A stretch of DNA of 64,000 nucleotides from Miltoncostaea oceani (lineage in GTDB: Bacteria > Actinomycetota > Thermoleophilia > Miltoncostaeales > Miltoncostaeaceae), in assembly GCF_018141545.1 (NCBI RefSeq), contig NZ_CP064356.1:2121001-2185000 (forward strand), read 5' to 3'. Numbering within the stretch: the stretch's first letter is position 1; the number at the start of each line of letters is the position of its first letter. This document shows, one piece after another, positions 22,480 through 62,667 of this stretch. The notes beneath the pieces were generated by a model. The model saw only the letters and a list, made by a program, of their open reading frames with translations. It did not search any database and was not told the origin of the DNA. A program made the translations under genes and the position numbers.

Positions 22480-22506
22480 CCCGGCGGCCCCGACGGGGCC
22501 GCCGGG
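22480..22506 (-). terminator. 12-bp perfect hairpin ending the small-gene operon
   Basis: CCCGGCGGCCCC and GGGGCCGCCGGG pair perfectly around a 3-nt loop. It begins 11 nt past the stop of the last small gene (22517) and lies before the start of the c-di-GMP gene. Confidence 0.72.
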
Positions 22507-22516
22507 CACGGCCGGT

Positions 22517-47985: not shown

Positions 47986-48315
47986 ATGCCGCTCTACCTG
48001 TCGCAGTTCAGCTACACGCCCGAGACCTGGGCCCGGCTGATCGAGAACCCGGAGGACCGCGCGGCGGCCGCCCGGTCGTACATCGAGTCGGTCGGCGGGA
48101 CCCTCCACGGGTTCTGGTACGGGTTCGGCACCCACGACGGCCACACGCTGTGGGAGGCGCCGGACGACGTCTCCATGGCCGCGGTCGCCCTGGCGATCGG
48201 CGCGGGAGGTGCGGTCCACTCGTTCGAGACGACGGTGCTGCTGACGGTCGACGAGACGCTCGACGCCCTCCGCCGGGCCGGGGAGATCCGCTACCGCCCA
48301 CCGGGGACCGCGTAG
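47986..48315 (+). CDS. GYD-domain protein
   Basis: 109 residues: PLYLSQFSYTPETWARLIENPEDR, SVGGTLHGFWYGFGTHDGHTLWEAPDD, and a helix-strand ending in TVLLTVDETLDALRRAG. These match the GYD family (usually with a G-Y-D motif; here GTHDG). The family is uncharacterised and forms an alpha/beta-barrel-like fold. The ATG follows a GAGGGGGA site. Confidence 0.85.
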   Translation: MPLYLSQFSYTPETWARLIENPEDRAAAARSYIESVGGTLHGFWYGFGTHDGHTLWEAPDDVSMAAVALAIGAGGAVHSFETTVLLTVDETLDALRRAGEIRYRPPGTA

Positions 48316-48347
48316 CGCGGCCGGCGCCCCCTGGCCGGGCCCGCCGG

Positions 48348-48377
48348 TTGACAGGGGCGCGGCGCCGCGCGCATCCT
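48348..48377 (+). promoter_or_regulatory. promoter of the DUF4177 gene
   Basis: TTGACA (48348-48353), 18-bp spacer, CATCCT (48372-48377), 6 nt, then the ATG at 48384. It predicts a leaderless message. Confidence 0.5.
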
Positions 48378-48383
48378 CCGGGC

Positions 48384-48569
48384 ATGCAGAAGTGGGAGTA
48401 CCTCGTCGTCCCCCTGCAGGAGGCCGGTGGACTCAGGAAGTCCGGCGACATGACGCCCGACCGCCTCAACGAGCTCGGTTCGGAGGGGTGGGAGGCGGTC
48501 GGACTGACGCTGAAGAAGGGCGATCTGGTCGCGTGGCCGGTCGTCCTGCTCAAGCGCCCCGTCGACTGA
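48384..48569 (+). CDS. DUF4177 small protein
   Basis: 61 residues: MQKWEYLVVPLQE, LNELGSEGWEAVGL and VLLKRP. This is the compact beta-alpha-beta DUF4177 pattern (KWEYKVV...LN..G.EGWEL). The function is unknown. It is preceded by a consensus -35 and has no ribosome-binding site. Confidence 0.88.
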   Translation: MQKWEYLVVPLQEAGGLRKSGDMTPDRLNELGSEGWEAVGLTLKKGDLVAWPVVLLKRPVD

Positions 48570-48801
48570 GGGCGGTGACGCCCGGCCGGGCGCGCGCCGG
48601 CCTGGGGCACGAACGGCCGTAGTACCCCGCAGCCGGCCTCCGGGCGCGCGCGAATGGCGGACGGCCCCACGCGGTGATGTGGTGGCCGCATGCCCGGTCC
48701 CCTCGTCGGAGGCGGCGACCCGGGTCGTCGTCGATCGGTCGGGCGGGGCTCCGAGCTCCCGGCGCATCCAATGCGTCCCCCACGAGCTGAAGGAGGTCCC
48801 C

Positions 48802-49056
48802 ATGAACAGGCTCGTCCTCGCCGGCGTCGTGATCGCCGGCGTCGCGATCGCCGCGAGGCGCTTCGCGCCGCGGCTCCCCGAGGTGGACATCGGCAGGGCC
48901 ATCGCGGCGATGCCCGACAGCGCGCCGCCCAAGTGGGTGTTCAACAACGTCACCGCGATCCGCGAGAACACCGAGCGCATCCTGGAGATCCTGGAGGGAC
49001 GCGCGGCGTCGCCCGGGGGCGAGCCCCCCGGGGCCGGGCCCTCGTCCCCCGTGTGA
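48802..49056 (+). CDS. small protein with N-terminal membrane helix, 84 aa
   Basis: A short N-terminal hydrophobic helix (LVLAGVVIAGVAIAA), a Pro/Arg segment (RRFAPRLPEVDIGRAIAAMPDSAPPKW) and a helix (AIRENTERILEILEG). It has a strong AAGGAGG site. No family was recognised. The MPDSAPPKW..FNN..AIREN pattern may be a conserved helical hairpin. Confidence 0.68.
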   Translation: MNRLVLAGVVIAGVAIAARRFAPRLPEVDIGRAIAAMPDSAPPKWVFNNVTAIRENTERILEILEGRAASPGGEPPGAGPSSPV

Positions 49057-49232
49057 GCCGGCCGGGTCGGCGGCGCGCCCCTGATGAGCGGCCGGCGAGC
49101 CGATCCGGGGCCGGGTCGACAGTGCGCTTCTCGACACCTCGCCGCATGCGGGGGGATCTTGCAGACGGGGGGCGGGAGCGACGTCGCGCCCTCCCGCGGT
49201 GCGTTCGACCACCGGGTCACTCCCTGAGAGGA

Positions 49233-49269
49233 CCCCGTCCCCACCGGCGACCCCGCACGGGGGACGGGG
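49233..49269. terminator. 10-bp hairpin between convergent genes
   Basis: CCCCGTCCCC and GGGGACGGGG pair around a 17-nt loop, between the small membrane gene (stop 49056) and the SnoaL-like gene (stop 49302). Confidence 0.5.
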
Positions 49270-49301
49270 CGCCGGGGGGCGGGGCACGCGCACGACTCCG
49301 T

Positions 49302-49739
49302 CTACCTGGCCGGGCCGGCCGTCACCCCGCCGATGCTCAGCATGAGGGCGAGCGAGTCGAAGTAGTGGTCCATGACGGCGATCCGCCCGTCCGCCATCGT
49401 CATCGCCATGCAGGCGGGCGTGGCGACGGGGCGGTTCGTCGGCGCGATCATCGACCCGTCGGGGGCCGGCATGGGCCCGACGTGGTGGGCGCGCCACACG
49501 ACCTGCAGGGCGCACCGCTCCCCGCACGCCACCACGTCGACCAGCTCGCCGTGGTGCTCGGGCCCGAGGCCGTCCTTCCAGCCCCTGATGAGCTCGACGG
49601 CCGCGTCCGCCCCCGACGCGTCCCGGCCCGTGCCGTGCTCGCGGTAGACGAAGCCGTCCGCGAGCGTCGCGCGGAAGGCCTCCCAGTCGTTCTCGTTGAA
49701 GGCCCGGAGCATCTCCCGGGCGACTGCCTCAGAGTCCAT
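49302..49739 (-). CDS. SnoaL/NTF2-like protein
   Basis: 145 residues: AREMLRAFNENDWEAFRATLADGFVYREHGTGRD, VELIRGWKDGLGP, CALQVVWRAHHVG and MADGRIAVMDHYFD. This matches the ester cyclase/SnoaL branch of the NTF2 fold, which catalyses polyketide cyclisation or serves as a small-molecule binding fold. The substrate is unknown. The ATG is set by GGAGG 9 nt upstream. Confidence 0.85.
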   Translation of the reverse strand: MDSEAVAREMLRAFNENDWEAFRATLADGFVYREHGTGRDASGADAAVELIRGWKDGLGPEHHGELVDVVACGERCALQVVWRAHHVGPMPAPDGSMIAPTNRPVATPACMAMTMADGRIAVMDHYFDSLALMLSIGGVTAGPAR

Positions 49740-50075
49740 TGCGATGACCTCCCGCCGTGTGTGCCGTGCTCCATCCATACGGCCTGCCACCCGACGACGT
49801 CATCGGAGGCGATCCGACCGTCTCCTGCGGTTCGTCCGCAGCGGCCGCGGCGTCGATGCCGAGTCGTCGGGTCGCGTCCCTGCCGTCCCACGCATGCGTC
49901 GGGCGGCCCGGGGACGACGACGGTCCCCCACGCGAACGGGCCGATGGCCACACCGCCCACCGGCGTCCCCCACCCCCCACCGACCCCGCCACGGCGCCGG
50001 CGATGGCAGCCGGGAACCGGGGGGAGCGCCGCCGCCGCGACCGAGACGTCCGCGTGCCGCGCGAGCCCGCTCGGC
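49740..50075. other. intergenic stretch with nothing recognised
   Basis: About 340 bp between the SnoaL-like gene and the DUF72 gene fragment. No convincing coding frame, RNA gene or strong hairpin was seen on either strand. Confidence 0.5.
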
Positions 50076-50168
50076 CTAGCGGTTCAGCAGCTCCGTGAAC
50101 CGCGCGGCATTCCGCAGCGCGTAGTCGCGTGCGTTGTTGTTGAACTGCAACGCGACGTCCGCAGCCAT
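50076..50168 (-). pseudogene. orphan 3' fragment of a DUF72 gene
   Basis: 31 codons ending at a TAG. It reads ADVALQFNNNARDYALRNAA followed by RFTELLNR, matching the C-terminus of the intact DUF72 protein at 52507-53424 (VAVVFNNNARDYALRNASRF). The rest of the gene is absent here. At the DNA level a 59-bp block is 54/59 identical to the 3' end of the intact gene. It marks the outer edge of the island 50.1-52.6 kb. Confidence 0.8.
50086..50144 (-). repeat. 59-bp direct repeat, left copy (att-like)
   Basis: 54 of 59 positions are identical to 52538-52596, in the same orientation. It lies inside the DUF72 3' fragment. The longest exact block is 20 bp. It is interpreted as an old attachment-site duplication at the end of the DUF72 gene. 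Confidence 0.75.
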
Positions 50169-50184
50169 GCGGCTTTCCGGCGCG

Positions 50185-50220
50185 TGGACAACGTCTTGGA
50201 CAACCGCTTGGACAAGACAC
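50185..50220 (+). repeat. three tandem 12-bp repeats
   Basis: TGGACAACgtct, TGGACAACcgct and TGGACAAGacac follow one another just inside the left island edge. A two-copy version (TGGACAACgccc, TGGACAAatcc) occurs inside the right edge at 52419-52441. Read in plus they encode LDN/LDK repeats. Confidence 0.7.
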
Positions 50221-50346
50221 TCGGTCGCGCTCTCTGCTTCATCTGGACTTCCGCGCGCATCAACCGGGCCAACAGCGACCCTGAACCGACTTGCTTGGCG
50301 ATGCCCGTATGGGATTGGGTGGCCAGGACCCGAAGCGGAGGGCACG

Positions 50347-50784
50347 ATGGGTTCGCTAAGACTCGCCGACCTGCCAACAGACGAGAGTGCGCGCCTTTCT
50401 GCTGGCGTCATAATCAAGACGAAGCAGCTCGTGTTGGACCACATGACGTCTCACGCGATCGCGGCCAATAGCCCGGTTCGGAGTGAGCGTCGCGCCGCCA
50501 AGAAGGCGTCCAAGCACGAGTTGTCGGAGTTGCTCGACACGCTCAAGGCACTCGGACTTGGCGAAGGGGAGGCAAGAGAGCTGGCGCTTGGGGCCTACCG
50601 CGATGCTTCGGCGGGGCGGCCCCCCATCAGCGATCTGGTCAGCCTCGAAGCGGTTGCCGAAGACGCTTGGTCGCGAATCATCGACACGCTGGACTCGGGT
50701 GGCTACATCCATCGTGCCGATGCGATCGCCTTCATGAGGAGTCACGAAGCTGGCCGAACGGCGAGCCCCTCGGCAGGCGCGTGA
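50347..50784 (+). CDS. island hypothetical protein A, 145 aa
   Basis: A soluble, helix-rich protein: DLPTDESARLSAGVIIKTKQ, RSERRAAKKASKHELSELLD, LGLGEGEARELALGAYRDA. No family was recognised. The ATG has GGAGG 5 nt upstream. Codon use has clearly more A/T-containing codons than the rest of the window, as for the other island genes. The next gene starts 6 nt after its stop, so the two form a pair. Confidence 0.65.
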   Translation: MGSLRLADLPTDESARLSAGVIIKTKQLVLDHMTSHAIAANSPVRSERRAAKKASKHELSELLDTLKALGLGEGEARELALGAYRDASAGRPPISDLVSLEAVAEDAWSRIIDTLDSGGYIHRADAIAFMRSHEAGRTASPSAGA

Positions 50785-50790
50785 CGGTCC

Positions 50791-51171
50791 GTGGGCATAT
50801 TCCGACGCAAGCCCCCTAAGCCGCCTTGGCACCAGTGGGTTGCTCAGGCCAAGGGACAGCAGACCACCGCCTCCAACCTCATCGAGGAAAACGCCGCGCA
50901 TCCCAGTGTTCGCAGGGCCTCGGAAGAGGGAAAGCTCGCCAAGGCCATGACCCGTCTGGACTTCGCAGCGAAGTCCTTGCACGGGGCCTACCGCGCTGGC
51001 GCGTCCTGCGAAGAGATCGCGCGCGAATGGCTGGGCGACGACGACCCAGGAAGCGTCGAGCGAGTGCGGGCCGTTCTCGAAGACGGTGCTGCCCTCCGGC
51101 AGGGGTACGCCGACGCCTTGCCTGACATGGCCCTGCCCGACACAGGCTGGCACGAGAGCGCCCTCTCCTAA
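50791..51171 (+). CDS. island hypothetical protein B, 126 aa
   Basis: It starts at a GTG 6 nt after gene A: MGIFRRKPPKPPWHQWVAQA, a Pro/Lys-rich head, then helices (SNLIEENAAHPSVRRASEEG, CEEIAREWLGDD). No catalytic motif or membrane segment is seen. Paired with gene A it could be a two-gene accessory module, but I cannot assign a function. Confidence 0.62.
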   Translation: MGIFRRKPPKPPWHQWVAQAKGQQTTASNLIEENAAHPSVRRASEEGKLAKAMTRLDFAAKSLHGAYRAGASCEEIAREWLGDDDPGSVERVRAVLEDGAALRQGYADALPDMALPDTGWHESALS

Positions 51172-51274
51172 CTTCGCTGCGCCGCCCGCCAGGCGTCCAT
51201 CCGGTCCCCGGCGGACGGGAGTAGGTGGTGGCCTGAGCGTTCACGAGGGCCCCCGGCCCCCCACCGTGATCCGA

Positions 51275-51904
51275 TCACAGCTTCGGCAGAAGGGCGGCCA
51301 CCTCTATCTCGGCGCCGAAGAGGAGGTCTCGGAATTCCTCTCGCGTCGGCGGGGGGCGACCTCCGAAAGCATCGAGGGGGAGCACCACAGCATTCAGCGC
51401 GGACACCAGCGCCTCACACGCGGGGAGATCAAGGCTCCCCTTGAAGTGGAGGGCTTGCTCCAGGTCCGCCTTCTGCGTCCATATCTCCTCGCATCTGAGC
51501 GGCTTATCGGCGGGTTTCGGGTACCGGCTCGGCACGACCGGCACGACCAATGCGGGACCTCGGGAAAGACGTTCCAGGGGCTCCTGGATCCTGCGGAGGC
51601 GATCGAGGCGATCAAGGTCAGACAGGCTCCTGGCCGTCGTCTGGAGATCGTCGAGAGCCGACTTCGCGTCGGCGAGAACCTCATGGAGTTGACGGCTGTC
51701 TTCAGTCGCTGCGACCGCCACGAAGATGGCCCAGACCCCGAGGAGCGTTCCGATGATCGCAAGCGCATAGCTCACCCCTGAACCGCGCCAGAGCCCGAAG
51801 GAGAAGGCGACGGCCAGTACGGTCGGGACGATGAGGAACGCGGCCGCCTCCCAGGTCTTCTGATCGAACCTGCGCCAGGAGTAGGGAGGGGGCCGCTCGC
51901 TCAC
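51275..51904 (-). CDS. island membrane protein with cytoplasmic coiled coil, 209 aa
   Basis: Two membrane helices (AAAFLIVPTVLAVAFSFGLW and VSYALAIIGTLLGVWAIFVAV, about 20-68) are followed by a probable coiled coil (LHEVLADAKSALDDLQTTAR, DLDRLDRLRRIQEPLERL) and a C-terminal helical domain. No family was recognised. The GTG start has AGGA immediately before it. The gene is convergent with the gene pair A/B and lies in the lower-GC island. Confidence 0.65.
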   Translation of the reverse strand: MSERPPPYSWRRFDQKTWEAAAFLIVPTVLAVAFSFGLWRGSGVSYALAIIGTLLGVWAIFVAVAATEDSRQLHEVLADAKSALDDLQTTARSLSDLDRLDRLRRIQEPLERLSRGPALVVPVVPSRYPKPADKPLRCEEIWTQKADLEQALHFKGSLDLPACEALVSALNAVVLPLDAFGGRPPPTREEFRDLLFGAEIEVAALLPKL

Positions 51905-51941
51905 TCCTGCGGAGCGTAACGGCGCCGGGGGACGCCTTCGC

Positions 51942-52217
51942 TCACAGCCCCGCCGCAGCTCGCACCAGCTCGTCCCGCACTCGCGCCAGCACGGCTAGGC
52001 GCTCGGGGTCGTCACCGGCTGCGTCGATGTCCCTGGCCAGGTCGTCGCGCATGGCGACCAGCCGCTCCGGGTTGGCGCGCAGGTCCGCACGGATGGCGGC
52101 CAGCTCCTCCCGCCCTGCCATGAGGCCGTCGCCGAGGGCGGCCCACGGCCCCGCGTGGACGGTGTCGCGGGCAGTCAGGTAGTCGGTGCAGGCGGCGGCC
52201 ACGCTCGCGCCGTGCAC
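51942..52217 (-). CDS. small helical protein, probably 5'-frameshifted
   Basis: 91 residues, very helical (EELAAIRADLRANPERLVAM, RDDLARDIDAAG, LAVLARVRDELVRAA). A GTG at 52217 is the first start in frame, but the same frame reads sensible protein upstream (TIAGCGDPHDLTPAIEA). A strong GAGGAGG-ATG at 52292 begins an 18-codon peptide (MTEHDRPAPSRAAATRTT) in another frame. The most likely history is one gene of about 115 codons starting at 52292 that suffered a frameshift. No family was recognised. Confidence 0.55.
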   Translation of the reverse strand: MHGASVAAACTDYLTARDTVHAGPWAALGDGLMAGREELAAIRADLRANPERLVAMRDDLARDIDAAGDDPERLAVLARVRDELVRAAAGL

Positions 52218-52506: not shown

Positions 52507-53424
52507 CTAGCCCGAGATCCCTTTCCCTGATTGAGAAAGCAGCTCCGAGAACCGCGACGCGTTCCGCAGCGCGTAGTCGCGCGCGTTGTTGTTGAAGACG
52601 ACGGCGACCTCCTGGGCGCGTTCGGCCATGTCGAGGACGGGTCCGACCCACTCCTCCATCTCGTCGTCCGTGTAGACGTGGTCGAATCGCTCGGCGACGC
52701 TGCGGCCCGTGTTCCACGTCGCCGCGTTGCGGCCGTGGAGGCGGAGGTACGCGAGGGCGGGGCTCGTGACCTCGACGATCGGTGGCATCAGGTTCTTCGC
52801 GTCGCTCCGGGGGGCGTCAACGCACACCCACGCCGCGTCGCGCTCGCCGAGCATCTCGGCGGTGGCACGCCGCTCCTCCGGCTCCGCCCACGACCGGTGC
52901 CGGAACTCGACGGCGGTGCGCGCCGGCTTCAAGCGGTCCACGATCCGGGCGATCTCCCGCCGCTGGGCGTCGCCCGCCACCACGTACGGCGGCAACTGCA
53001 GGAGGATCGCGCCGAGCTTGTCGCCGAGGGGACCGCACGCCTCCAGCAGCGAGTCGATGACGGCGTCCCGCAGCTCGCGGCTCGGCTTGCGGATCCGTCC
53101 CCGCCGGTCCGGCTCGTACGGCAGGTCCCGCAGCGGCGGCGGCAGCCGGCCCGGCTCCGACGGGTGGCCCGAGATCACCTGGTGGGCCTTCACGTGGAAG
53201 CGGAAGCCGTCCGGTGTCCGGTCCGCCCACGCCTCCGTCGTCGGGACGGTCGGCAGCGCGTAGAAGCTCGCGTTCACCTCGACCATCGGGAAGCGCTCCG
53301 CGTAGTACCGGAGCCTCCCCTCCGCGTCGTCCTTCACGCCGGCCGGGTACCAGCCCGCCTTGATGAACTCGGGGTCGGTCCAGGAGGCCGTCCCCACGCG
53401 TACGCCGCTCGCCATTCCCGGCAT
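52507..53424 (-). CDS. DUF72 (YecE-like) protein
   Basis: 305 residues with a TIM-barrel-like DUF72 pattern: VRVGTASWTDPEF, GWYP, LRYYAERFPMVEVNASFYALP, FRFHVKAHQVISGH, LQLPPYV, TAVEFRHRSW, AYLRLHGRN, and a C-terminal FNNNARDYALRNA. The function is unknown. The 3' 59 bp are duplicated at 50086-50144. The tail (SQSGKGISG) differs from the displaced copy (NR), as expected if an integrated element supplied a new 3' end. Confidence 0.9.
   Translation of the reverse strand: MPGMASGVRVGTASWTDPEFIKAGWYPAGVKDDAEGRLRYYAERFPMVEVNASFYALPTVPTTEAWADRTPDGFRFHVKAHQVISGHPSEPGRLPPPLRDLPYEPDRRGRIRKPSRELRDAVIDSLLEACGPLGDKLGAILLQLPPYVVAGDAQRREIARIVDRLKPARTAVEFRHRSWAEPEERRATAEMLGERDAAWVCVDAPRSDAKNLMPPIVEVTSPALAYLRLHGRNAATWNTGRSVAERFDHVYTDDEMEEWVGPVLDMAERAQEVAVVFNNNARDYALRNASRFSELLSQSGKGISG
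52538..52596 (-). repeat. 59-bp direct repeat, right copy (att-like)
   Basis: The partner of 50086-50144, inside the 3' end of the intact DUF72 gene. Confidence 0.75.
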
Positions 53425-53428: not shown

Positions 53429-54835
53429 TCACGCCGTGACGCTCCCGGCGACCACCCTGTTGCGTCCCCCCTCCTTCGCCGCGTAGAGCGCGCGGTCGGC
53501 CGCCTCGATCAACAGCTCCGGCGAGCAGCCGCCGGTCGTCACGGCGACGCCGACGCTGACGCTCACCGCCCGGTCGCCGACCGGCGTCGCCGCGATCGCC
53601 GCCCGCAGCCGCTCCGCCGCGAGCAGGGCGCTCGCCTCGTCCGCCCCCGGCATGATCACCGCCATCTCCTCGCCCCCGTACCGCGCCGGCACGTCCACCG
53701 CGCGGCACGTGCCGCGCAACGTCGCCGCCACGGCGGCGATCGCGTCGTCGCCGGCCTGGTGGCCGAACGTGTCGTTGAACGACTTGAAGAAGTCGATGTC
53801 GAGCAGGCACAGGCCGAGCGAGCCGCCGTTGCGCGCCACCTCCGCCACCCGCCGCTCCAGCTCCACGTCGAACGCCCGCCGGTTCGCGATCCCCGTCAGG
53901 CCGTCGGTGAGGCTCAGGCGCTCCGCATCGTCCACGAGCCGTGCCCTCCAGAGGGCGCTGCCGAGGCTCGCCGTGAGGGTCTCGAGGGCGCGGACGTCGC
54001 GCAGCAGGCGCACGCGGTGCCCCCCGCCCGTCCGGCGGCCCGCGGCGCGGCGCCGGCACTCGATGCGACCCGCCGGCGCCCCCGCCACCACCACCGGGAC
54101 CACCACGACGCCCTCGTCCCCCTCCCGGCCGACCCGCACGTCGCCGGGACCGGGACCCCGGACGACCGTCACCCGCCAGCCGGGCATCAGCTCCGCCCCC
54201 GCCGCGCGCGCCACGTCGGTCATGTCCGCCGCCGTCGGCGCGGCCAGCAGGGCCAGGGCCGCCTCGTGGAGCACGCCGAGGCGGACCGCCCGCAGGCGCA
54301 GCTCCCGCTCCCCCGTCGCGGCCCCCGCCACCGCCGCCACCAGCACCCCCCAGAAGAGGGTCAGCCGCCCCAGCGACGCCGCGCTCCACAGGTGGCCGTC
54401 GTCGGTCCAGACGAGCGTCAGGAAGCCCAGCGACGCGAGCACGCCGCCCTTCACCCCCGTGCGCGCCGAGTACCCGAGGGCCGCCCACAACGCCGTCACC
54501 AGGAACAGGCCGACCACCGGCGACCGCGACCCCCCCGCCGCGGCCGCGAGGGCGGTCACCCACAGCGCGTCGACGACCAGACCCACGTCGACCGCGACGC
54601 GCAGGCGCCGCGGCCACCGGGCGGGCACGAACCACAGGAGCGCGTGCAGCAGCACGAAGACCACGCAGGCCGCGGCCATCGCCCACCGGTCGCGGGCGAG
54701 GGCGCCCGCCGGCGCCGCCACCGTGGCGACGCCCACCACGACGGCCGCCCCGAGACGGCCCGCGAGAACGCCCGAGTGGCGGGCCTCCAGCTGGAACCAG
54801 GGACGACGGGACCGCTCGCCGGCGAGCGCGTCCAT
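53429..54835 (-). CDS. membrane diguanylate cyclase (GGEEM)
   Basis: 468 residues. About five to six membrane helices (residues 30-195) are followed by a GAF-like region (200-290) and a GGDEF domain with LLDIDFFKSFNDTFGHQ and RYGGEEMAVI (near 387). The last motif residue is Met instead of Phe, a conservative change that often keeps activity. Its ATG overlaps the stop of the upstream anchor gene (TGATG), making it the last gene of the WxL-like surface operon. It ends 4 bp from the DUF72 start. Confidence 0.9.
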   Translation of the reverse strand: MDALAGERSRRPWFQLEARHSGVLAGRLGAAVVVGVATVAAPAGALARDRWAMAAACVVFVLLHALLWFVPARWPRRLRVAVDVGLVVDALWVTALAAAAGGSRSPVVGLFLVTALWAALGYSARTGVKGGVLASLGFLTLVWTDDGHLWSAASLGRLTLFWGVLVAAVAGAATGERELRLRAVRLGVLHEAALALLAAPTAADMTDVARAAGAELMPGWRVTVVRGPGPGDVRVGREGDEGVVVVPVVVAGAPAGRIECRRRAAGRRTGGGHRVRLLRDVRALETLTASLGSALWRARLVDDAERLSLTDGLTGIANRRAFDVELERRVAEVARNGGSLGLCLLDIDFFKSFNDTFGHQAGDDAIAAVAATLRGTCRAVDVPARYGGEEMAVIMPGADEASALLAAERLRAAIAATPVGDRAVSVSVGVAVTTGGCSPELLIEAADRALYAAKEGGRNRVVAGSVTA

Positions 54836-55655
54836 CAGAAGTCGATCATCGTGTCGTCGGGTGTCCCGCGGCCGCGCCACGCGAGCTTCTGGCCGCCGTC
54901 GATGAACCGCTGCAGCAGCGCGTAGGCCGCCGCGGCGATCACCAGCAGCAGCGGGAACGCGACGGTCCACGCCACCCGCTCCGGGTCGGCCAGCAGGCGC
55001 CCGAGGGCCGCGAGCGGTCCGCCGCGACCGTCGTCGTCGCGGGGGGCCGGGCCGGCGGCCGCCCCCCCACCCCCGCCCGCCTGCGCGGGCGCACCACCCG
55101 GTGACGCCGCGGCGGGCCGCGGGGCCCCGTCGCCGCCGCGGCCCCCGCGGGTGGGGCCGGGTCGCCGATGCCGCCCCCGAGGACCGGTCCGCCCGGGGCC
55201 ACGGCGTCGCCGGGCGCCCCCGGGGTGCCGGCGGCGGGGGTCGGCGGGGCCGGGGGCGTGGGCTCGCCGGGCGCGGCGGGGCCCGCGGGCACGGCGACCA
55301 CGTCGACCCGCGCCACGGCGTCCGGCGCGCCGTCGCGGTGGGCGACGGCGACGAGGCGGTGCGGCCCCGGCGCCGGGGTCCACGGGCCCGCGAGCTCCGC
55401 GGTCGTCCCGCTCCACGTCGGCGTGCCGTCGACCGCCATCGCGACCCCGTCGGCGTCGACCGTCTCGACCCGGACCACGATCTCGTCGCCCGCCACGAGG
55501 CGCGCCCCGTCGCGGGGCGCGACGATCCGCACCGTCGGGGCGGCGTCGTTCACGACGCGCACCTCGACACGGGTGGCGAGCGCCGGGGCCGGGGCGGCGG
55601 AGAGCAGGGCCACGACGGCCCCCGCGCTCACGAGGCGGAGAGCGTGATGTCGCAT
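54835..55655 (-). CDS. exported Ig-like protein with C-terminal membrane anchor, split by a frameshift
   Basis: The 5' part (from ATG 55655) encodes a signal peptide (LRLVSAGAVVALLSAAPAPALA), an Ig-like domain (TVRIVAPRDGARLVAGDEIV) and a Pro/Gly/Ala linker. The 3' part, in the -1 frame, encodes the rest of the linker and a membrane anchor (VAWTVAFPLLLVIAAAAYALL) followed by a basic tail. The shift maps to a run of five G near 55147. The downstream cyclase start overlaps the second frame's stop, and the start overlaps the upstream gene by 28 bp, so one gene of about 273 codons is intended. It could be an assembly indel, a real mutation or slippage. Confidence 0.7.
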
Positions 55656-57100
55656 CGGTAGACGCCGGAGAGCGCCGTGACGGGGATCGTGAGGGACAGG
55701 GACGGGTTCTCGCGGAAGGTGCCGATGCCGGCCCCCGGCGACGCGCCCATCAGGACGATCGGCGTCGAGGTGTGGAAGGTCCCCCCGGCCCCCGCCCACA
55801 CCCCCGTCATGTCCGACCCGTCGGGGGTCGTCGGGGCGGCCGGGGTGGCGGTGAACGCGTCCGCCGGGAGCATCTGCGCGGGCGCGCCGTCGAGGACCCA
55901 CCGGGTCGCCGTCGCCCGCAGCTCCCACCCGGACGCGGCGCCGCCACCGTCGACGACCTCGACGGTCCCCAGGGGACCCGAGCTCACCGCCGGCGCGAGG
56001 GGGTCGATGGCGACGGGCGGGAGGGTGACGGAGGTCGGGCCCGACACCGACGCGCCGCCGGTCGCGACGACCCGCAGGTACTCCACCGAGAGGACGTCGG
56101 CGGTCGCGTCGGCCCCCGTCCCCGTCGCCGCGAACCTCACGCGGACGGTGCCGCCGTTCCGCTGGGCGGCGGTCAGGCCGAGCGAGGCCGTGGCGTACGA
56201 CGCGCCGGACACCGTCGTCCACGGCGTCCACGTCGTCCCGTCCCAGACCTGGGCGGTGAACGACTCCCCGCTCGTGCGCGCCCGCATCTCGAGGGTGTGG
56301 GTCGTGCCCGCCGGGACCGACGTCACCCGCAGCTCGCCGTCGGCGTGCGACGCCCTCGGGGTGACGTCGAGGGTGACGTCGTCGTAGTTGACGCCGAGCC
56401 CGCCGACGAGGCTGAGGACGGAGCTGAACGACGAGTCGATCCGCAGGTGGTAGGTGTGGCCCGACACGATGTCGGACGGCCCGACCGTCGCCGAGGTCAC
56501 CGTGCCCCACGGCGTGTCCGCCGATGCGCTGCCCGACACCAGGACCTTCGTGCCGGGGGCGGTCTCGTCGACGAGCACGACCTGCCACGTCGTCGTGACC
56601 ACCCCCACCAGGCCGTTCGCGTCGACCATGCGGTCCATCGAGAACGCGACCGCCGCGGGGGTGCCCCCGGACCACGTGAACGAGGGGCTCGTCCACGTGC
56701 TGCCGCACGCCGCGAGCAGCCCCGCCAGGTTGAGGAGGGTGGCGTAGGTCGTGCGGATCGACCCCGCCGGGCTGCCGGTGCCCGCGTCGTGGGCGCTCGA
56801 CGCCGAGCAGAGCACGGCGCTGGTGTCCGCGGGCGTCCACCCCGCGGCGTTCGTCGCGAAGGTGCGGTTCGACGGGTACGAGGTCGCCGCGACGCCGCCG
56901 GCGTCGGTCTCGGTGAGGGTGGCGGCGGCGTCGGCGTCCGACGCGCTCCCCGCCCCCGCCAGCCCGGCCCACGTGCCGGGAGGAGTCCCCGCCGACTGGG
57001 ATGCGTAGGTGGTGGAGGTGCCGTAGCCGAGGGCGGTGCCGCACGCGACCGCCAGAACGACCAGCACCGCCGCGCACGCGGCGGTCACACGGCGCCTCAC
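55628..57100 (-). CDS. large exported surface protein with WxL-like C-terminus
   Basis: 490 residues. A signal peptide (RVTAACAAVLVVLAVACGTALG) is followed by long Thr/Ser/Gly-rich beta domains (TTYATLLNLAGLLAACGSTW, DVTPRASHADGELRVTS, SFTAQVWDGTTWTPWTT). The C-terminal domain of about 120 residues starts with GWELRATATRW and ends SLTIPVTALSGVYRCDITLS. The same kind of ending occurs in two other proteins of this operon and resembles WxL domains that bind cell walls. It overlaps the lipoprotein gene by 4 bp (GTGA). Confidence 0.78.
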   Translation of the reverse strand: MRRRVTAACAAVLVVLAVACGTALGYGTSTTYASQSAGTPPGTWAGLAGAGSASDADAAATLTETDAGGVAATSYPSNRTFATNAAGWTPADTSAVLCSASSAHDAGTGSPAGSIRTTYATLLNLAGLLAACGSTWTSPSFTWSGGTPAAVAFSMDRMVDANGLVGVVTTTWQVVLVDETAPGTKVLVSGSASADTPWGTVTSATVGPSDIVSGHTYHLRIDSSFSSVLSLVGGLGVNYDDVTLDVTPRASHADGELRVTSVPAGTTHTLEMRARTSGESFTAQVWDGTTWTPWTTVSGASYATASLGLTAAQRNGGTVRVRFAATGTGADATADVLSVEYLRVVATGGASVSGPTSVTLPPVAIDPLAPAVSSGPLGTVEVVDGGGAASGWELRATATRWVLDGAPAQMLPADAFTATPAAPTTPDGSDMTGVWAGAGGTFHTSTPIVLMGASPGAGIGTFRENPSLSLTIPVTALSGVYRCDITLSAS

Positions 57101-57570
57101 GGCGTCCCCTCCACGGCGACGGCGACCTCGACCGACGACTCGTAGCTGACCGACACGGCCGCGGCGGCGTCGCCCTCGGCGCGCGCGACGACCCGGCCGC
57201 GCAACGTCCCCGTCGCCCCCGGGGGCACGACGGCGCGGGCGGCGACGGGGACGCTCTGGCGGGCGGGGATCACGACCGCCGGGGGGACCTCGAGCCACCC
57301 CGGCTCGGCGGTGAGGGCGAGGGTCCTCTCCGCGTCGGATGCGTTCGCGAGGCGCAGCGCTACGGTCGCGGCGGCACCGGGCGGCGCGGTCGCGCGCGCG
57401 ACCGCGTCGGCGCCGTCGGCGACCAGCGCGAACCCGCCCGACCGCGCGGGCGGCGCGACGGTCGCGGCGGCCCCCGCCGGCGGCGCCGCGGGGGCCGGGG
57501 GGTCGCCCCCGCAGCCGGCCAGGGCCACGGCGACGCACGCCGCGACGAGGGCGACGGGACGACGCGTCAC
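57097..57570 (-). CDS. lipoprotein with Ig-like domain
   Basis: 157 residues. A lipobox signal peptide (ALVAACVAVALAGCGG) indicates a lipidated Cys at about position 20. An Ala/Pro linker and one beta-sandwich follow (VALRLANASDAERTLALTA, EVPPAVVIPARQSVPVAARA). This is similar in style to DUF916/NPCBM-like accessory domains. It overlaps both neighbours by 4 bp and is probably anchored to the outer face of the membrane. Confidence 0.8.
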   Translation of the reverse strand: MTRRPVALVAACVAVALAGCGGDPPAPAAPPAGAAATVAPPARSGGFALVADGADAVARATAPPGAAATVALRLANASDAERTLALTAEPGWLEVPPAVVIPARQSVPVAARAVVPPGATGTLRGRVVARAEGDAAAAVSVSYESSVEVAVAVEGTP

Positions 57571-58073
57571 GAGATCGTCGCCACGAGCACCGTGTCGTAG
57601 ACGCCGCTCGCCGCGTCGCCCGGGACGGTGAGCGACACCTCGATCTCGACCTCCGTCAGGCCCGCGCCGGCGCCGGGGGGCGCGGCGAGGATCGCCCGCG
57701 GCGTGCCGAGCGCCCCGGGCGACCCGGGGACCGTCCCGAGCCCGCCCACGGGCACGCGCGTCGCCTCGACGACGAGCGGGGCGCCGATCGACCGCCCCCG
57801 CGCGTCGGCGGGCGGCGGCGCGGTGACGACGAGCGTCCACCCCGACGGCGGGCTGCGGGTGTCGGCCACCCGGAAGGGGCCCACGGGTCCGCGGACGGTG
57901 ACGGGCTCCCCGCTCACCCGGGCGTCCGGCAGCTCCACGTCGCCGGGGGACCGGGCCGAGAGGCCGCCGCTGTGCACGTCGACCACGGCCTGCGCCCCCG
58001 ACCCCGCGGGGACCGCCGGGACCAGGAGCGCGATGGCCACCAGCGCCGTGACGAGCACCGCGTCACCGTTCAC
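57567..58073 (-). CDS. exported WxL-like domain protein, 168 aa
   Basis: A signal peptide (AVLVTALVAIALLVPAVPAG) and one beta domain: PVTVRGPVGPFRVADTR, SGWTLVVTAP (a W-x-L motif), IEVSLTVPGDAASGVYDTVL. The ending is homologous to those of the proteins at 55628 and 58980. It is a probable surface protein bound non-covalently to the wall or to the DUF916-like partner. GTG start; it overlaps the upstream gene by 11 bp and the downstream gene by 4 bp. Confidence 0.76.
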   Translation of the reverse strand: MNGDAVLVTALVAIALLVPAVPAGSGAQAVVDVHSGGLSARSPGDVELPDARVSGEPVTVRGPVGPFRVADTRSPPSGWTLVVTAPPPADARGRSIGAPLVVEATRVPVGGLGTVPGSPGALGTPRAILAAPPGAGAGLTEVEIEVSLTVPGDAASGVYDTVLVATIS

Positions 58074-58983
58074 GCCGCCTCCGGCTGCGGAACCCCGCTC
58101 CGACCACCGCGAGGAGGAGGACGCCGGTCGCAGCGGGCCGGATGGGGCTCACCGGCACGTCGGCGCGCCCCTGCGCCCCGGTGGCGTCGCCCATCCTCAC
58201 CACCACCTCGTACCCCCCCGGCGTCCACGGGAGGGCGATGCGCATCGCCACCGGCCGGCGCTGCCCCGGCAGCACGGTGCCGAGGTCGACGGTGCGGCGG
58301 GCCCGGACCTCGCCGCCCCGCACCAGGTCGACCGTGCCCGTCAGGTCGTCGAAGCGGACGTTGCCGGCGTGGCGCACGGTGAACGCGACGTCCACGGCGT
58401 CGGGGAGGCCGAGGACGTCCCGGGCGCCGCCCCGCACCGTCAGGGTGGAGAGGTCGTCGACCACGACGGTCCCGTCGCGCTCACCGGCGACGGTCACGTA
58501 GACGCGCAGCCCGACGCGCTCCACGACCCGGACGGCGACACCGGCCCCGGCGGGTGCCCGCGCCGCCGACGCCGACTGCACCACCACCCCGCCGGCGTGG
58601 TCGCCGGGCTCGGCGTCGGCGGGCACCCGCACCGTGAAGCGGAGGGTGCGGCGCTCACCCGGCGCGAGGGTGACGCGGCGCGGCGGCAGCCCGATCCAGG
58701 CGCCGACGCCCGTCGGGGCGTCGCCCGATCCCGCGAGGGTGAAGACGCCGTCGGCGGTCGTGACGCCGTCGGCGGTGGCGACCTCGACCGTCTGGGGGGC
58801 GTCGGTCAGGTTCACGAGGACGGCGCCCGTCCGCGCCGACGCCCCGGGCTCCACCTCGAGCTCGACCCAGCTCTCGTCACCCGCGAGGGGGTGGACGCCG
58901 ACGAGCGAGCCCGTGGCGCCCGTGGCCGTGCCCGCGAGGGAGAGCAGCACGAGCAGCGCGGCCGCGGCCGCCCACCGGATCAC
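58063..58983 (-). CDS. DUF916 (WxLIP)-like exported protein with C-terminal anchor
   Basis: 306 residues: a signal peptide (AAAALLVLLSLAGTATG) and a first beta domain (WVELEVEPGASARTGAVLVN, VTLAPGERRTLRFTVRVPAD, GDHAGGVVVQS), which matches the peptidoglycan/WxL-interacting DUF916 pattern. A second beta domain follows (VDVAFTVRHAGNVRFDDLTG). A C-terminal membrane helix and Arg tail (GVLLLAVVGAGFRSRRRR) complete it. In Firmicutes such proteins pair with WxL proteins on the surface, as they appear to here. It overlaps the upstream gene by 4 bp (GTGA). Confidence 0.82.
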   Translation of the reverse strand: MIRWAAAAALLVLLSLAGTATGATGSLVGVHPLAGDESWVELEVEPGASARTGAVLVNLTDAPQTVEVATADGVTTADGVFTLAGSGDAPTGVGAWIGLPPRRVTLAPGERRTLRFTVRVPADAEPGDHAGGVVVQSASAARAPAGAGVAVRVVERVGLRVYVTVAGERDGTVVVDDLSTLTVRGGARDVLGLPDAVDVAFTVRHAGNVRFDDLTGTVDLVRGGEVRARRTVDLGTVLPGQRRPVAMRIALPWTPGGYEVVVRMGDATGAQGRADVPVSPIRPAATGVLLLAVVGAGFRSRRRRER

Positions 58984-59564
58984 GAGATCGTGACGGTGAT
59001 CGTCGTGGTGTAGGGGGCGCCGACGTACGAGGCGAGGGCCGTCGCCGGGATGGTGATCCCGAGGCTCGGGGTGAAGGTGTACGCCCCGCGGTGCGGCCCC
59101 GACGTCGACAGGAGGCTGACGTTGGTCTGCCCCGGTCCGCTCGGAGTGGTGAAGGCCGCGCCGGTCGCCGTGGCGATGCCGGACGCGGCGTCGGCGCCGG
59201 TGCCGGCCGTGACGGTCCCCGTCGTGATCGCGAGGGCGCTCGACGGGATCACGCGGTTCGGCGTCCCCGCCGAGACGAGGTCGGTCGCCGAGGCGACGAC
59301 GCTCCAGGCGGCGCCGGTGCCGCGGGCGTCGGTCGCCGTCCACGGGCCGGCCGGGGTCGTGGTGAGCGTCTGGTCGACCCCGGTGAGCGCCGCGCTACGC
59401 GCCGCGAAGTCCGACGCCACGAGTGACAGCGAGCCGGCGGTCACCGTGACCTCGGCCCCCGACGTCGCGGCGTGGGCCGCCGGCGCGAGCACGGCCAGCG
59501 CGACCGCCCCCCCGCAGGCGACGACGCGCATCCGTGCGCGTGACCTGCTCCTGACCCGCTCCAT
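58980..59564 (-). CDS. exported WxL-like domain protein, 194 aa (first gene of surface operon)
   Basis: A signal peptide (RVVACGGAVALAVLAPAAHAA) and one beta domain (GAEVTVTAGSLSLVASDF, GTGAAWSVVASATDL, LGITIPATALASYVGAPYTT, then TITVTIS). The W-x-V and terminal strand pattern match the other two WxL-like proteins of the operon. The ATG follows GGATGGAG. It is the first gene of a seven-gene, fully overlapping operon running to 53429. Confidence 0.78.
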   Translation of the reverse strand: MERVRSRSRARMRVVACGGAVALAVLAPAAHAATSGAEVTVTAGSLSLVASDFAARSAALTGVDQTLTTTPAGPWTATDARGTGAAWSVVASATDLVSAGTPNRVIPSSALAITTGTVTAGTGADAASGIATATGAAFTTPSGPGQTNVSLLSTSGPHRGAYTFTPSLGITIPATALASYVGAPYTTTITVTIS

Positions 59565-59668
59565 GACCGCACTCCATCCATAGGTAAATACGTCTCACGG
59601 GTGGTATCGAATCATCAGAGCAGGACTTGAGGCTCCGTGGCCACGATGCCCGGTGTCGCGTGATGGCC
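59565..59668 (-). promoter_or_regulatory. A/T-rich promoter region of the surface operon
   Basis: This is unusually A/T-rich for the window. On the minus strand a TATTTA (59590-59585) can serve as -10, giving a leader of about 13 nt with the GGATGGAG site. No good -35 is present, which fits an activator-dependent promoter; the LuxR-type regulator encoded just upstream is a candidate. Confidence 0.45.
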
Positions 59669-60700
59669 CTAGACCCAGCCCTTCTCACGGGCGAGGAGGA
59701 GGGCCTGCGACTGGCCGGACACACCGAGCTTGCGGTACACGTGGTGCAGGTGGTTGTGGACCGTCGACGCGGAGCAGCCGAGCTCGTGGGCGACCTGCTT
59801 CGCCGCGGACCCGCGGGCGAGCAGCCGCAGCACCTGGACCTCGCGGTCCGTGAGGCCGGGGGGCCGGCGCGGGCCGTCGGTGTCGGGCGACGACATGAGC
59901 AGGGTCTCGAGGGCGTCCGGGGCGAGGCCGCACTCGGCCGCGGCGAGCGGCAGGCGGGCGATCGCCTCCTCGTCGCCGCCGGACGCGCGCACCGCGATGT
60001 CGGCGAGCCAGACGGGCCGCGCGACGGCCTCGGCCGGCGGCGCGGCGTCGTGGTGGCGCTCCATGGCGAGGCAGAGGTCCTCGGGGAGCCCCCACCGCCG
60101 GGCGATCCAGGCGGCCACGCGGGTGTGGTCCGTGCCGAACAGCTCGCGCTCGCGGGCGACCGAGGTGACGACCTCCTCCCCGACGTCCATCCCGCGGTCC
60201 TCGGCGATGGTCGCGAGGATCGGCTTGCCGAGGTCGTGCAGCAGGCCGGCGAGGTAGACCTGGGACGCGAGCGCCGCCGGGCCGAGCCGCGCCAGCGACT
60301 GGGCCATCACCGCCACCTCGCCGCAGTGCCGCAGCAGGTAGAGGCGCGGGTAGCCGTAGGCGGTGAGCGGCCCCTCGAGCAGGCGGTACGTCGTGGCGGC
60401 CAGGAGCAGCCCCCGCAGGGTCCGCTCGCCGATCCGCACGATGGCGCGCTCGATCGTGTCCACCGGCTCGCTGAAGAGGGCGGAGTTGCCGAGGCGCAGC
60501 ACCTGGGCCGCCACCTCGGGGCTCTGCGACACCCGCGCGCCGATGAGGCGCACGGGGGCCGAGCCCTCGTCGAGCAGCTGCAGCACGCCGGCGACGACGG
60601 GCGAGGGGGCGGCCAGGCGGTCCGCCGCCTCCGCGACAGCCCGGGCCGTGACGCGGGGCGCCTCGGGCGCGGTGACGGTGTCGGGGGAGGTCGTGCTCAC
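59669..60700 (-). CDS. HDOD domain-LuxR HTH regulator
   Basis: 343 residues. The N-terminal 200 residues are an HDOD domain (PSPVVAGVLQLLDEG, GARVSQSPEVAAQVLRLGNS, AGLLHDLGKPILATI, MERHHDAAPP). The C-terminus is a LuxR-type helix-turn-helix (LTDREVQVLRLLARGSAAKQ, STVHNHLHHVYRKLGVSG). HDOD domains occur in signal transduction and share ancestry with HD/HD-GYP domains, and direct fusion to a LuxR HTH is uncommon. The GTG start has AAGGAG. It lies 11 bp from the HD-GYP gene and next to the surface operon it may control. Confidence 0.9.
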   Translation of the reverse strand: MSTTSPDTVTAPEAPRVTARAVAEAADRLAAPSPVVAGVLQLLDEGSAPVRLIGARVSQSPEVAAQVLRLGNSALFSEPVDTIERAIVRIGERTLRGLLLAATTYRLLEGPLTAYGYPRLYLLRHCGEVAVMAQSLARLGPAALASQVYLAGLLHDLGKPILATIAEDRGMDVGEEVVTSVARERELFGTDHTRVAAWIARRWGLPEDLCLAMERHHDAAPPAEAVARPVWLADIAVRASGGDEEAIARLPLAAAECGLAPDALETLLMSSPDTDGPRRPPGLTDREVQVLRLLARGSAAKQVAHELGCSASTVHNHLHHVYRKLGVSGQSQALLLAREKGWV

Positions 60701-60711: not shown

Positions 60712-62667
60712 TCAGCCAGCCGGTCGCGTGACGTCCGCCGCGCCCCTGCCGACCAGGGACCGCAGCGCCGCCACGACGACGGGATCGAACTCGTCGCCCG
60801 AGCGCCGCTCGAGCTCGTTCATGACATCGGCGGGACGCAGCGGGAATCGCGTCGGCCCCCCGTTCGAGAGACGGTCGAAGGCGTTCGCGACGGCGAGGAT
60901 GCGGGCCTCGAGGGGGATCTCCTCACCGTGGAGTCCCGCCGGGTACCCCGTGCCGTCCATCCGCTCGTGGTGGTGCAGGACCCAGGGCCCGACCGTCTCG
61001 AGCCGGCTGCCCGCGAGCATCCGCTCCCCGATCTCGGGGTGGCGGCGCAGCTCCTGCTCCTCGTCCTCGGTGAGCTCGTGGTCGGGCACGACGATCTCGT
61101 CGCTGACGCCGATCTTGCCGACGTCGTGCAGCAACCCCGCGACGCGGACGTCCTCGGCCCGGTCGGGCGGCAGCCCGAGCTCCGCGGCGAGGAGGGCGCC
61201 GACGCGACCGACGTTCTCGGAGTGGTGGATCGTCGCCGGGTGCCGGGCGTCGATGGCGGCCGCGATCGACGCGACCGTCGTCAGCACGGCCTCGTCGTCG
61301 GTCTCGGCGCCGCGCTCCTCGCCGCGGAGGATCTCGGCGGTGTCGGCGGAGTAGAGGAACGTGCGGTCGCCGCCGTGGGCCCGGGCCCACGCGAGCGCGC
61401 TCATGGCGTTCTCGACCAGCGACTCGGGACGCCCCGCCTGCGTCGGGAAGCTCGCCACGCCGATCGACAGCGTGAAGCCGTCCTCGAGGCCCGCGACGCC
61501 GGGGAGGGAGGCGCGCAGGCGCTCACCGACGCGCAGGGCGTCGATCCCCTCGACCTCCGGCAGGATCGCCGCGAGCTCGTCGGGACCGAGGCGGCAGCCG
61601 ACGTCCATCGCGCGGAGGCGGTCGGCGAGGTGGCCGGCGAGCGCCTCGACGGCGGCCTCCGCGGCGACCTCGCGCCCCTGGGCGCGCAGCTCCTCGAGTC
61701 CGTCGAGCGACAGGACCGCGATGCTCACCGGGACGCCCGCGCGGAGGGCGCGCTGGCACTCCTGGTCGAGGCGGCCGTGGAAGTAGCGGGAGTTGAAGAA
61801 CCGGGTGAGCGGGTCGACCGCCCCGAGATCCCGGATCTCCTGCTGGAGGACGGACATCGTCAGCGACGCGGCGGCGTGCGCGGCGAGCTGGGCGAGGGCC
61901 TCCAGGTCGGGGACCCGCAGGGGGTCGTCGGAGACGCCGAACACGGCGAGGATGCCGAGCGACGCGCCCTCGCCGACGCCGACGAGCGCGACGCTGGCGA
62001 GGCCGCGGTCGCGGAGGGGGCCGTCGGCGAGGGGGCCGGTCCACCCGGCCCCGTCGAGGATCGCGGCGCGGCGGTCCGGCGGCACGAGCGCGGCCAGGTC
62101 CGCGGGCGACAGCGGCTCCATGCCGTCGTAGGCGGCGACCTCGGGGCTCGGGGAGCCGGCGGCGAGCAGGGCGGCCGCCGGCGCGTCGACCAGGGTCCGC
62201 GCCTCGGAGAGCACGCGGGCGACGGCCTCGCGGGGCTCCCGCGACCCGTGGACGGCGCTGGCGGCGGCGCCGAGGCGGCGTGCGCGCTCGCGCTCGTCGG
62301 CCTGCTCGCGCTGCAGGGACAGGTGCTCCAGGCCACGGGCGCAGACGGCGGCGACGAGCCGGAGGGCGGCCTCGGCCTCGGCCTCGTCGGCGGCGCCCCA
62401 GATCTCCACGTGCCCGATGAGTCCGTCCCGGCCGACGAGGTCGGCGCGGACGGTCCCGCCCTCGGACCCGTCGCCCTCACGGGCGAGGACGGCCCCGGAG
62501 GGGTGCGCGACGATGCGGCCACCGCGTGCGCCGGTCGCGGCGAGGGCCGCGTCGAGGGCGGCCGGGGCCACCCGCTCGGGCCGCCGCTCGGCGGACATGC
62601 GCTCGATGATCTCGGCCAGCCGCGCAGGGCTGACGACACTCCAGGAACTCCGCTTCCATGCGGGCAC
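60712..62667 (-). CDS. GAF-(degenerate GGDEF)-HD-GYP protein
   Basis: 651 residues. N-terminal GAF-like sensor regions (about 20-280) are followed by a GGDEF-like domain in which the active site reads LGPDEL (near 361) instead of GGDEF. An intact HD-GYP domain has HDVGKIGV near 514 and HHHERMDGTGYPAGL near 573. The cyclase is probably inactive and may bind GTP as a regulatory site, leaving c-di-GMP hydrolysis as the activity. The GTG start follows GGGAGG. It probably forms a transcript with the HDOD-LuxR gene. Confidence 0.9.
   Translation of the reverse strand: MPAWKRSSWSVVSPARLAEIIERMSAERRPERVAPAALDAALAATGARGGRIVAHPSGAVLAREGDGSEGGTVRADLVGRDGLIGHVEIWGAADEAEAEAALRLVAAVCARGLEHLSLQREQADERERARRLGAAASAVHGSREPREAVARVLSEARTLVDAPAAALLAAGSPSPEVAAYDGMEPLSPADLAALVPPDRRAAILDGAGWTGPLADGPLRDRGLASVALVGVGEGASLGILAVFGVSDDPLRVPDLEALAQLAAHAAASLTMSVLQQEIRDLGAVDPLTRFFNSRYFHGRLDQECQRALRAGVPVSIAVLSLDGLEELRAQGREVAAEAAVEALAGHLADRLRAMDVGCRLGPDELAAILPEVEGIDALRVGERLRASLPGVAGLEDGFTLSIGVASFPTQAGRPESLVENAMSALAWARAHGGDRTFLYSADTAEILRGEERGAETDDEAVLTTVASIAAAIDARHPATIHHSENVGRVGALLAAELGLPPDRAEDVRVAGLLHDVGKIGVSDEIVVPDHELTEDEEQELRRHPEIGERMLAGSRLETVGPWVLHHHERMDGTGYPAGLHGEEIPLEARILAVANAFDRLSNGGPTRFPLRPADVMNELERRSGDEFDPVVVAALRSLVGRGAADVTRPAG

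Follow-up and report, generated by a model that had tools for sequence, protein, structure and literature searches.

A recurring tail/sensor pair joined to a WxL-like surface operon with a predicted diguanylate cyclase in Miltoncostaea oceani

In the 64-kb window analysed here, by which we mean the whole stretch C1:2121001-2185000 of the 4.54-Mb genome of M. oceani (G000), seven minus-strand genes, named A to G in their order of transcription, occupy positions 53429 to 59564 and encode six exported or anchored proteins followed by a membrane protein with a GGDEF domain (table 1). The main result of the analysis concerns the last two of these genes: the transmembrane (TM) helix and conserved cytoplasmic tail at the end of F, and the PilS-like six-helix membrane domain at the beginning of G, belong to families whose genes stand side by side almost without exception in two phyla, the six-helix domain being linked to either a GGDEF or a histidine kinase output. 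Our preferred interpretation, to which we assign a probability of about 0.57, is that a surface complex of motile cells signals through the tail of F to the cyclase G and thereby alters the synthesis of cyclic di-GMP (c-di-GMP).

The tail protein and its six-helix partner

Another Thermoleophilia genome, from outside the genus (G235), encodes two exported proteins, one of them a WxLIP, whose ends are similar to the C-terminal 60 residues of gene F, which comprise the TM helix and the tail YALLQRFIDGGQKLAWRGRGTPDDTMIDF; the genes there are arranged as membrane GGDEF, WxLIP with tail, second WxLIP, membrane GGDEF and exported protein with tail. A hidden Markov model (HMM) profile of the tail, the consensus of which reads FPLxLxxxVxxFLxVQxRIDRxDPKLALAP..., retrieves paralogues from each of the four genomes of the genus. 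Each of these tail proteins is encoded next to a GGDEF gene save an extra copy (L100) in the complete congener genome G003; at L097, L099 and L101 this neighbour is a full-length relative of G in divergent orientation. Across 396 genomes of Actinomycetota the same profile gives, after removal of false matches, 13 further tail proteins outside the genus. The genes of 11 directly precede a gene for the six-helix domain, with GGDEF as the output in seven cases and GAF-HisKA_3-HATPase in four, and the other two are orphans. The weak matches beyond the genus and G235 in a first HMM scan of the class were unrelated proteins, and L143/L144 were rejected as tails, being a transporter. In the remaining loci searched, including about 30 WxLIP loci, the profile has no other match at E ≤ 0.05.

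The reverse search, with a profile of the six-helix domain over the 396 genomes, leads to the same association: in 18 of the 19 strong loci (L145-L163) the domain is preceded on its own strand by a tail gene that stops 5-89 nucleotides (nt) before it, if one counts the weak tail of L163 (9e-6). The exception is L155, which has just 1,065 nt of upstream sequence and no recognisable tail therein. When a subset of the six-helix domain was used as the query for a contig scan of 84,980 GTDB species genomes, a tail gene was found upstream on the same strand, at a gap of 6-240 nt, in 25/25 loci (outputs: 19 GGDEF, 6 histidine kinase), distributed among Actinomycetota and Chloroflexota, including a Limnocylindrales bin and the isolates Cellulomonas marina and Geodermatophilus obscurus. 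These loci partly recur between the two scans, and about 20 loci contributed to neither profile. A contig scan with two sensors of the genus found no relative, and A6 was too divergent for a pattern search. In G. obscurus (L197 186-4416) an exported protein, a SipW-like signal peptidase, a tail protein and a six-helix GGDEF sensor are encoded in a row, which is again a surface-protein setting, an operon of the surface-fibre type with its own cyclase. Inspection by eye indicates a similar arrangement in C. marina (L196).

What could such a constant pair be doing under such inconstant partners? The outer parts of the tail proteins are mutually unrelated, ranging from an NHL propeller with immunoglobulin-like (Ig) domain, Ig repeats and WxLIP to fn3 and low-complexity stalks. 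Because partners are swapped on both sides, with many outer domains and two outputs around one tail and one membrane domain, we favour the reading of a receptor and its exported partner. By its sequence the six-helix domain appears to belong near PF25323 6TM_PilS (cut-off 27), for which G scores 19.4 bits, within the range of 17-20 that it shares with four other relatives, and the relative L134 reaches 33.4 bits. G contains at least five hydrophobic segments, and its GGDEF domain (PF00990, 135.7 bits) has the signature GGEEM and an intact I-site, RAVD; GGEEF/M and an RxxD I-site are found in 14/14 cyclases examined. The membrane GGDEF protein of the earlier sequence-only reading is borne out by these features, and G may be regarded as a predicted diguanylate cyclase.

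Since the six-helix domain appears to lie near 6TM_PilS, and the six TM segments of Pseudomonas aeruginosa PilS directly interact with the single-pass pilin PilA (PMC6058289), we have adopted PilS-PilA as the mechanistic model. The likeness extends to a PilS-like domain encoded beside a single-pass exported protein and, in one branch, to a histidine kinase output. The differences are that the partner here is not a pilin, has its TM helix at the C-terminus, a variable ectodomain (Ig, NHL propeller, WxLIP or low complexity) and a conserved cytoplasmic tail, and that a GAF domain is interposed before an output that is mostly GGDEF.

Only 3 of the 27 genomes of the class with PF06030, the WxLIP family (G000, G003 and G235), combine a WxLIP with the tail/sensor pair, and we have consequently rejected GGDEF proteins as regular partners of WxL clusters: tail protein and six-helix sensor would rather constitute a separate recurring pair that is joined here to a WxL cluster. 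Neither the tail motif nor a WxL-cyclase link in the same sense was found in the open-access papers searched. We lean, at slightly better than even odds, towards an undescribed family of transmembrane signalling pairs of Actinomycetota and Chloroflexota, formed by a single-pass exported protein, whose outer domain can be exchanged above a conserved C-terminal TM helix and tail, and by a PilS-like six-helix-GAF receptor with interchangeable output (c-di-GMP synthesis or histidine kinase), often behind a promoter of sigma-28 type and, in this genus, attached to a WxL/WxLIP complex. There is a reasonable prospect that the pair merits a separate family name. The novelty lies in the WxL-cyclase combination and the near-obligate pair, WxL clusters, GGDEF proteins and PilS-like domains being already known.

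The surface proteins and their gene neighbourhood

The sequence-only reading had described overlapping genes for six exported or anchored proteins and a membrane GGDEF protein, and the block stands as such: all seven genes lie at or very near the positions first given, the junctions are A/B -4, B/C -11, C/D -4, D/E -4, E/F -28 and F/G -1 nt, and each product from A to F has an N-terminal hydrophobic segment. The description needs correction in two respects, namely that F spans two frames instead of one and that G, present as described, is not clearly the last gene, since a conserved gene begins 4 nt further on, bearing what we take to be a DUF72-like domain. This gene, which occupies the same place in the congener with 79% identity, possibly shares the transcript of the operon.

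Gene B is firmly a WxLIP/DUF916 protein, in both sequence and fold, just as had been proposed for 58063-58983. It matches PF06030 (WxLIP_PGBD) with 35.3 bits (cut-off 27.3), as do 15 of 16 of its relatives, 3/16 of which also match PF11797 (HBD). A profile of B with 15 relatives retrieves both domains of EfmWxLIP1 from Enterococcus faecium (PDB 9i1y/9i25, E 8.6e-13), and the AlphaFold2 (AF2) model of B (pLDDT 86; signal helix, beta domains 28-141 and 151-278, helix 284-305) has the same crystal structures as its first three Foldseek matches (9i25_C, 9i1y_A and 9i1y_B, E ~1e-11). At about the place of the NQIDKxxxYFDLK stretch of WxLIPs, B has the non-identical GDESWVELEV.

The second part of the surface complex is less canonical. 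That A, C and E have homologous C-termini, as already noted from the letters, agrees with profile searches, where a profile of C and its orthologue from the congener hits E in its C-terminal part (6e-10) and one of A hits C (1e-3). Their assignment to WxL proteins can be upheld in part. Gene A scores 17.5 bits for PF13731 (WxL), under the cut-off of 25, C has no Pfam match at all, and a Pfam scan gives no PF13731 match for C or E. The PF13731 search of the own genome returned nothing at E ≤ 0.001 because gene A falls under the reporting level, a problem that was resolved by a family alignment: PF13731 is matched by 20 of the 24 members of an alignment that combines A, C and the end of E with relatives from Thermoleophilia (best 1.1e-14). 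In all three proteins the domain is C-terminal, is encoded beside a WxLIP and keeps the first motif, W-x-[LV], as WSV in A, WTL in C and WEL in E. The second motif is absent, none of the 24 aligned sequences having a W in its C-terminal columns. Given this absence and the low Pfam score, we do not file A, C and E as members of the WxL family; they would be WxL-like relatives rather than textbook members. The AF2 model of A (pLDDT 80.8, beta-rich) matches generic beta folds only, such as pilins and GH123 domains (Foldseek E > 0.03, VIA Z ≤ 7.5), and there is no sequence match in the PDB. The N-terminal domain of E recurs in other Thermoleophilia proteins (L066-L074), and neither profile nor plain identity searches assigned it to a family. 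Likewise, lipoprotein D has an orthologue in the congener and no match in family profile searches.

In Firmicutes, WxL clusters (csc; PMC10599100, PMC9772566, PMC1534035) similarly encode small and large exported proteins of WxL type beside a single WxLIP, itself built of two Ig domains and a TM helix. The present operon differs from them in the missing second motif, in the WxL sequence that remains under the Pfam cut-off, and in its additional lipoprotein, Ig tail protein and diguanylate cyclase. The sequence-only reading had described WxL/WxLIP complexes as known mainly from Firmicutes, yet such sets are not exceptional in this class: PF06030 is present in 27/299 Thermoleophilia genomes, typically with one to four WxL-like genes adjoining one WxLIP and mostly without a cyclase, and related DUF916 proteins are annotated on plasmids of Clavibacter and Cellulosimicrobium. 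In view of such sets, the WxL part counts as a new branch within a known type and is unsurprising in itself.

In G003 the entire block (locus L008) is kept in unchanged order, including the two genes upstream and the one downstream. All seven operon genes have conserved counterparts there, at about 48-68% identity; over aligned stretches the values are 73% for A, 56% for B, 50% for C, 60% for D, 55% for E, 64% for G and 69% for the HDOD regulator. Nonsynonymous divergence (dN) is lower than synonymous divergence (dS) over the whole of each gene from A to G, with dS of 0.5-0.8, values that are rough owing to the extreme GC. Because of this conservation with dN < dS, the gene set is more than a chance assembly. 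Genes B and E are missing from two draft congeners.

Two genes of the same orientation lie upstream of the operon: an HDOD-LuxR regulator, 104 nt from gene A, and, 11 nt before that regulator, a GGDEF-HD_5 protein. Its counterpart in G003 has a frame broken at a GCGCGCGCGC repeat (L008 ~6420-6477), and the window copy is intact. The window holds six GGDEF proteins (~214-3102, 8357-9757, 9753-12836, 20101-22650, 53432-54835 and 60712-62667) out of 40 in the whole genome, and thus constitutes a c-di-GMP hot spot. As to the downstream side, a second, short DUF72-like C-terminal match is found in L008 at 18748-18912, fragments read by eye near 50100 suggest a partial DUF72-like duplicate in the window too, and the region ~48000-52000 has a lower GC of 0.71.

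Table 1. Operon genes and associated features, in window coordinates.
Feature	Position	Strand	Evidence
Gene A, exported small WxL-like protein, 194 aa	58980..59564	-	PF13731 17.5 bits; family alignment; AF2
Gene B, WxLIP (DUF916): signal peptide, two Ig-like domains, C-terminal TM helix	58063..58983	-	PF06030; AF2/Foldseek
Gene C, exported small WxL-like protein, 168 aa, GWTL	57567..58073	-	homology to A and to C-terminus of E
Gene D, lipoprotein, 157 aa, lipobox LAGC	57097..57570	-	read from sequence; congener orthologue
Gene E, large WxL-like protein, 490 aa, C-terminal WxL-like end (GWEL)	55628..57100	-	sequence comparison
Gene F, front frame: signal peptide, bacterial Ig domain, Pro/Gly/Ala-rich linker	54939..55655	-	PF17957; codon statistics
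Gene F, tail frame (-1 relative to front): TM helix and conserved cytoplasmic tail	54835..55023	-	tail-family HMM matches
Gene G, PilS-like multi-helix membrane domain and GGDEF	53429..54835	-	PF00990; PF25323 sub-cut-off; motifs
HDOD-LuxR regulator, upstream of A, adjoins operon in congener too	59669..60700	-	family match; congener order
GGDEF-HD_5 protein (weak GAF), upstream, adjoins operon in congener too	60712..62667	-	family match; congener order
DUF72-like gene (presumed family), downstream of G	52507..53424	-	conserved place in congener
Candidate frame-change site in linker of F: G7 run with in-frame slippery heptamer G_GGG_GGG	55060..55070 (near 55068)	-	
Sigma-28 (FliA/WhiG)-type promoter match TCAA-N16-TCGATA, 40 nt before A	59605..59630	-	

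A candidate sigma-28-type promoter

The gap before gene A holds a block conserved in both genomes that coincides with a match to promoters of sigma-28 type, the congener site lying 32 nt before its own gene A. The consensus of the FliA/WhiG family of sigma factors is TAAA / GCCGATAA (PMC8325347), with a spacer of N15. The pattern TCAA-N16-YCGATA occurs at 10, 11 and 10 sites in three genomes of the genus, the reversed pattern at none, and the genes that follow the sites are mostly flagellar: flagellin, MotA, CheA, a CheY-like receiver and FliM, all with confirmed families, as well as FliO, FliJ and FlaG, which were identified by eye. G000 and G003 each have one sigma factor of the FliA/WhiG family over the cut-off. 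Scans for sigma-70 promoters and terminators found none, and a search upstream of the operon found no c-di-GMP riboswitch or other known RNA, with two sub-threshold matches in the entire window.

Sites of the same type lie shortly before the tail genes of L099, L101, L135, L138 and L141, directly before WxL/WxLIP genes in L052 (10146, 8561) and L108 (9478), and before or near them in L061 and L106. A scan of spacings peaks at 16-17 nt in the loci of the module and likewise in other WxLIP loci, where this spacing is clearly enriched, so that these surface genes probably belong to the flagellar sigma regulon more widely. A site of this type also lies upstream of a conserved small protein of unknown function (MKGYRTKKIALPGGKVIEIVYFSEP...) in two congeners (L213 and L227). 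A close parallel is the (RsiG)2-(c-di-GMP)2-WhiG switch of Rubrobacter (PMC8325347), another actinobacterial case in which sigma-28-family promoters precede genes for surface appendages and for diguanylate cyclases and phosphodiesterases; the appendages there are type IV pili, whereas here we find a WxL-like complex with its own cyclase.

Alternative readings of the operon

We propose that motile cells would build a complex facing the cell wall, in which WxL-like proteins are held by the WxLIP, with lipoprotein D and the large protein E as outer parts. F, if its two frames are joined in one product, would be the transmembrane connector: an exported Ig protein, the helix and cytoplasmic tail of which would pair with the six-helix domain of G. 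The stimulus may be binding, contact or the state of assembly outside the membrane; it would pass through F to G and change the synthesis of c-di-GMP, more likely by raising it. Since a candidate promoter of sigma-28 type lies before gene A, the complex would, if that promoter is used, be made by motile cells, which in turn points to a likely role in sensing the surface or the envelope when swimming cells turn to attachment.

Several observations weigh against this proposal. Adjacency is not equal to contact, and orphan tail genes exist (L100, L140 and L142). Most WxL/WxLIP clusters of the class have no tail/sensor pair, so the complex does not need it. G has GGEEM instead of GGEEF, and the joining of the Ig part of F to its tail requires a frame change. 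The promoter is a motif only, with TCGATA rather than CCGATA as its -10 element and 4/12 positions off the Escherichia coli consensus.

The best surviving alternative, which we nonetheless consider unlikely, takes the PilS precedent more literally: the six-helix domain of G would gauge free tail protein or unassembled complex within the membrane and tune c-di-GMP to the status of assembly, as PilS does with unassembled PilA. The PilS-like domain of G and its relatives, the precedent itself and the single conserved tail under very different outer domains all agree with such stock-keeping, which is harder to reconcile with the many loci where the tail protein is the sole exported product encoded nearby and with outputs that include cyclases, not just regulators of the surface gene's own transcription.

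Could the signal run in the opposite direction? The sequence-only reading had suggested a surface or adhesion machine under second-messenger control, with the cyclase acting through c-di-GMP on the complex and, in such a scheme, the tail serving as receiver or regulated anchor. The shared transcript and the conserved cytoplasmic tail would suit this scheme. However, a Pfam scan finds no c-di-GMP binding domain in F, and a role as c-di-GMP receptor is unlikely for a tail that, in several lineages, is partnered by a histidine kinase rather than by a cyclase. We judge this alternative to be very improbable. What endures of the original suggestion is a functional link between surface proteins and cyclase, now backed by comparative genomics, which would reside in the tail/sensor pair and not in a WxL complex controlled by c-di-GMP; the direction from messenger to surface looks less likely than that from surface to messenger, both being open.

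It is slightly less credible still that the cyclase rides on the transcript for timing only, without any partnership. GGDEF genes are indeed common in this genome and clustered in the window, but against this stands a near-obligate pairing of tail and six-helix domain over two phyla, which persists with kinase outputs and in divergent orientation.

There remains gene F, the Ig part of which is recognised by PF17957 Big_7 (30.3 bits, cut-off 24.1). The gene is not a single open frame, since the Ig part (start 55655) and the membrane tail (end 54835) are offset by -1, identically in the congener (L008 12976-13805). Codon statistics speak strongly for a change from the front to the -1 frame within the linker, with optima at 55163-55091 in the window and 13610-13634 in L008 and no switch in a control gene. 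The linker of the congener carries a slippery heptamer as well, G_GGG_GGT at L008 13560. The heptamer in gene F does not quite coincide with the codon-usage optimum, and G7 runs with slippery heptamers are common at such GC. Recoding, phase variation, two genes and a homopolymer or assembly error are all conceivable, and we cannot choose among them; an error of assembly is a live option because G003 has another broken frame nearby. That F represents two proteins, a secreted Ig protein and a tiny TM-tail protein begun at an internal GTG, or that the G7 tract renders the anchor phase-variable, is the least probable of the readings considered: the common offset, the G7 runs in both linkers and the GTG codons just ahead of the TM segment in both genomes speak for it, but these GTGs are at non-homologous positions, all other tail proteins examined run in a single frame from signal peptide through linker to tail, and a wrong base count in the homopolymer of either assembly could produce the same picture.

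Returning to a surface complex that signals through F to G, its interest lies in the fact that the conversion of surface touch into c-di-GMP is largely unknown in Gram-positive bacteria, for which the tail/sensor pair now offers a concrete candidate, in which outer protein and membrane receptor are both defined, the tail is short, outer domains and outputs are exchanged in nature, and some hosts are in culture. The pair further points to a way in which a cell could read complexes of WxL type, which are known mainly as adhesion and virulence factors of Firmicutes. In this organism, the pair may report to swimming cells what their surface touches.

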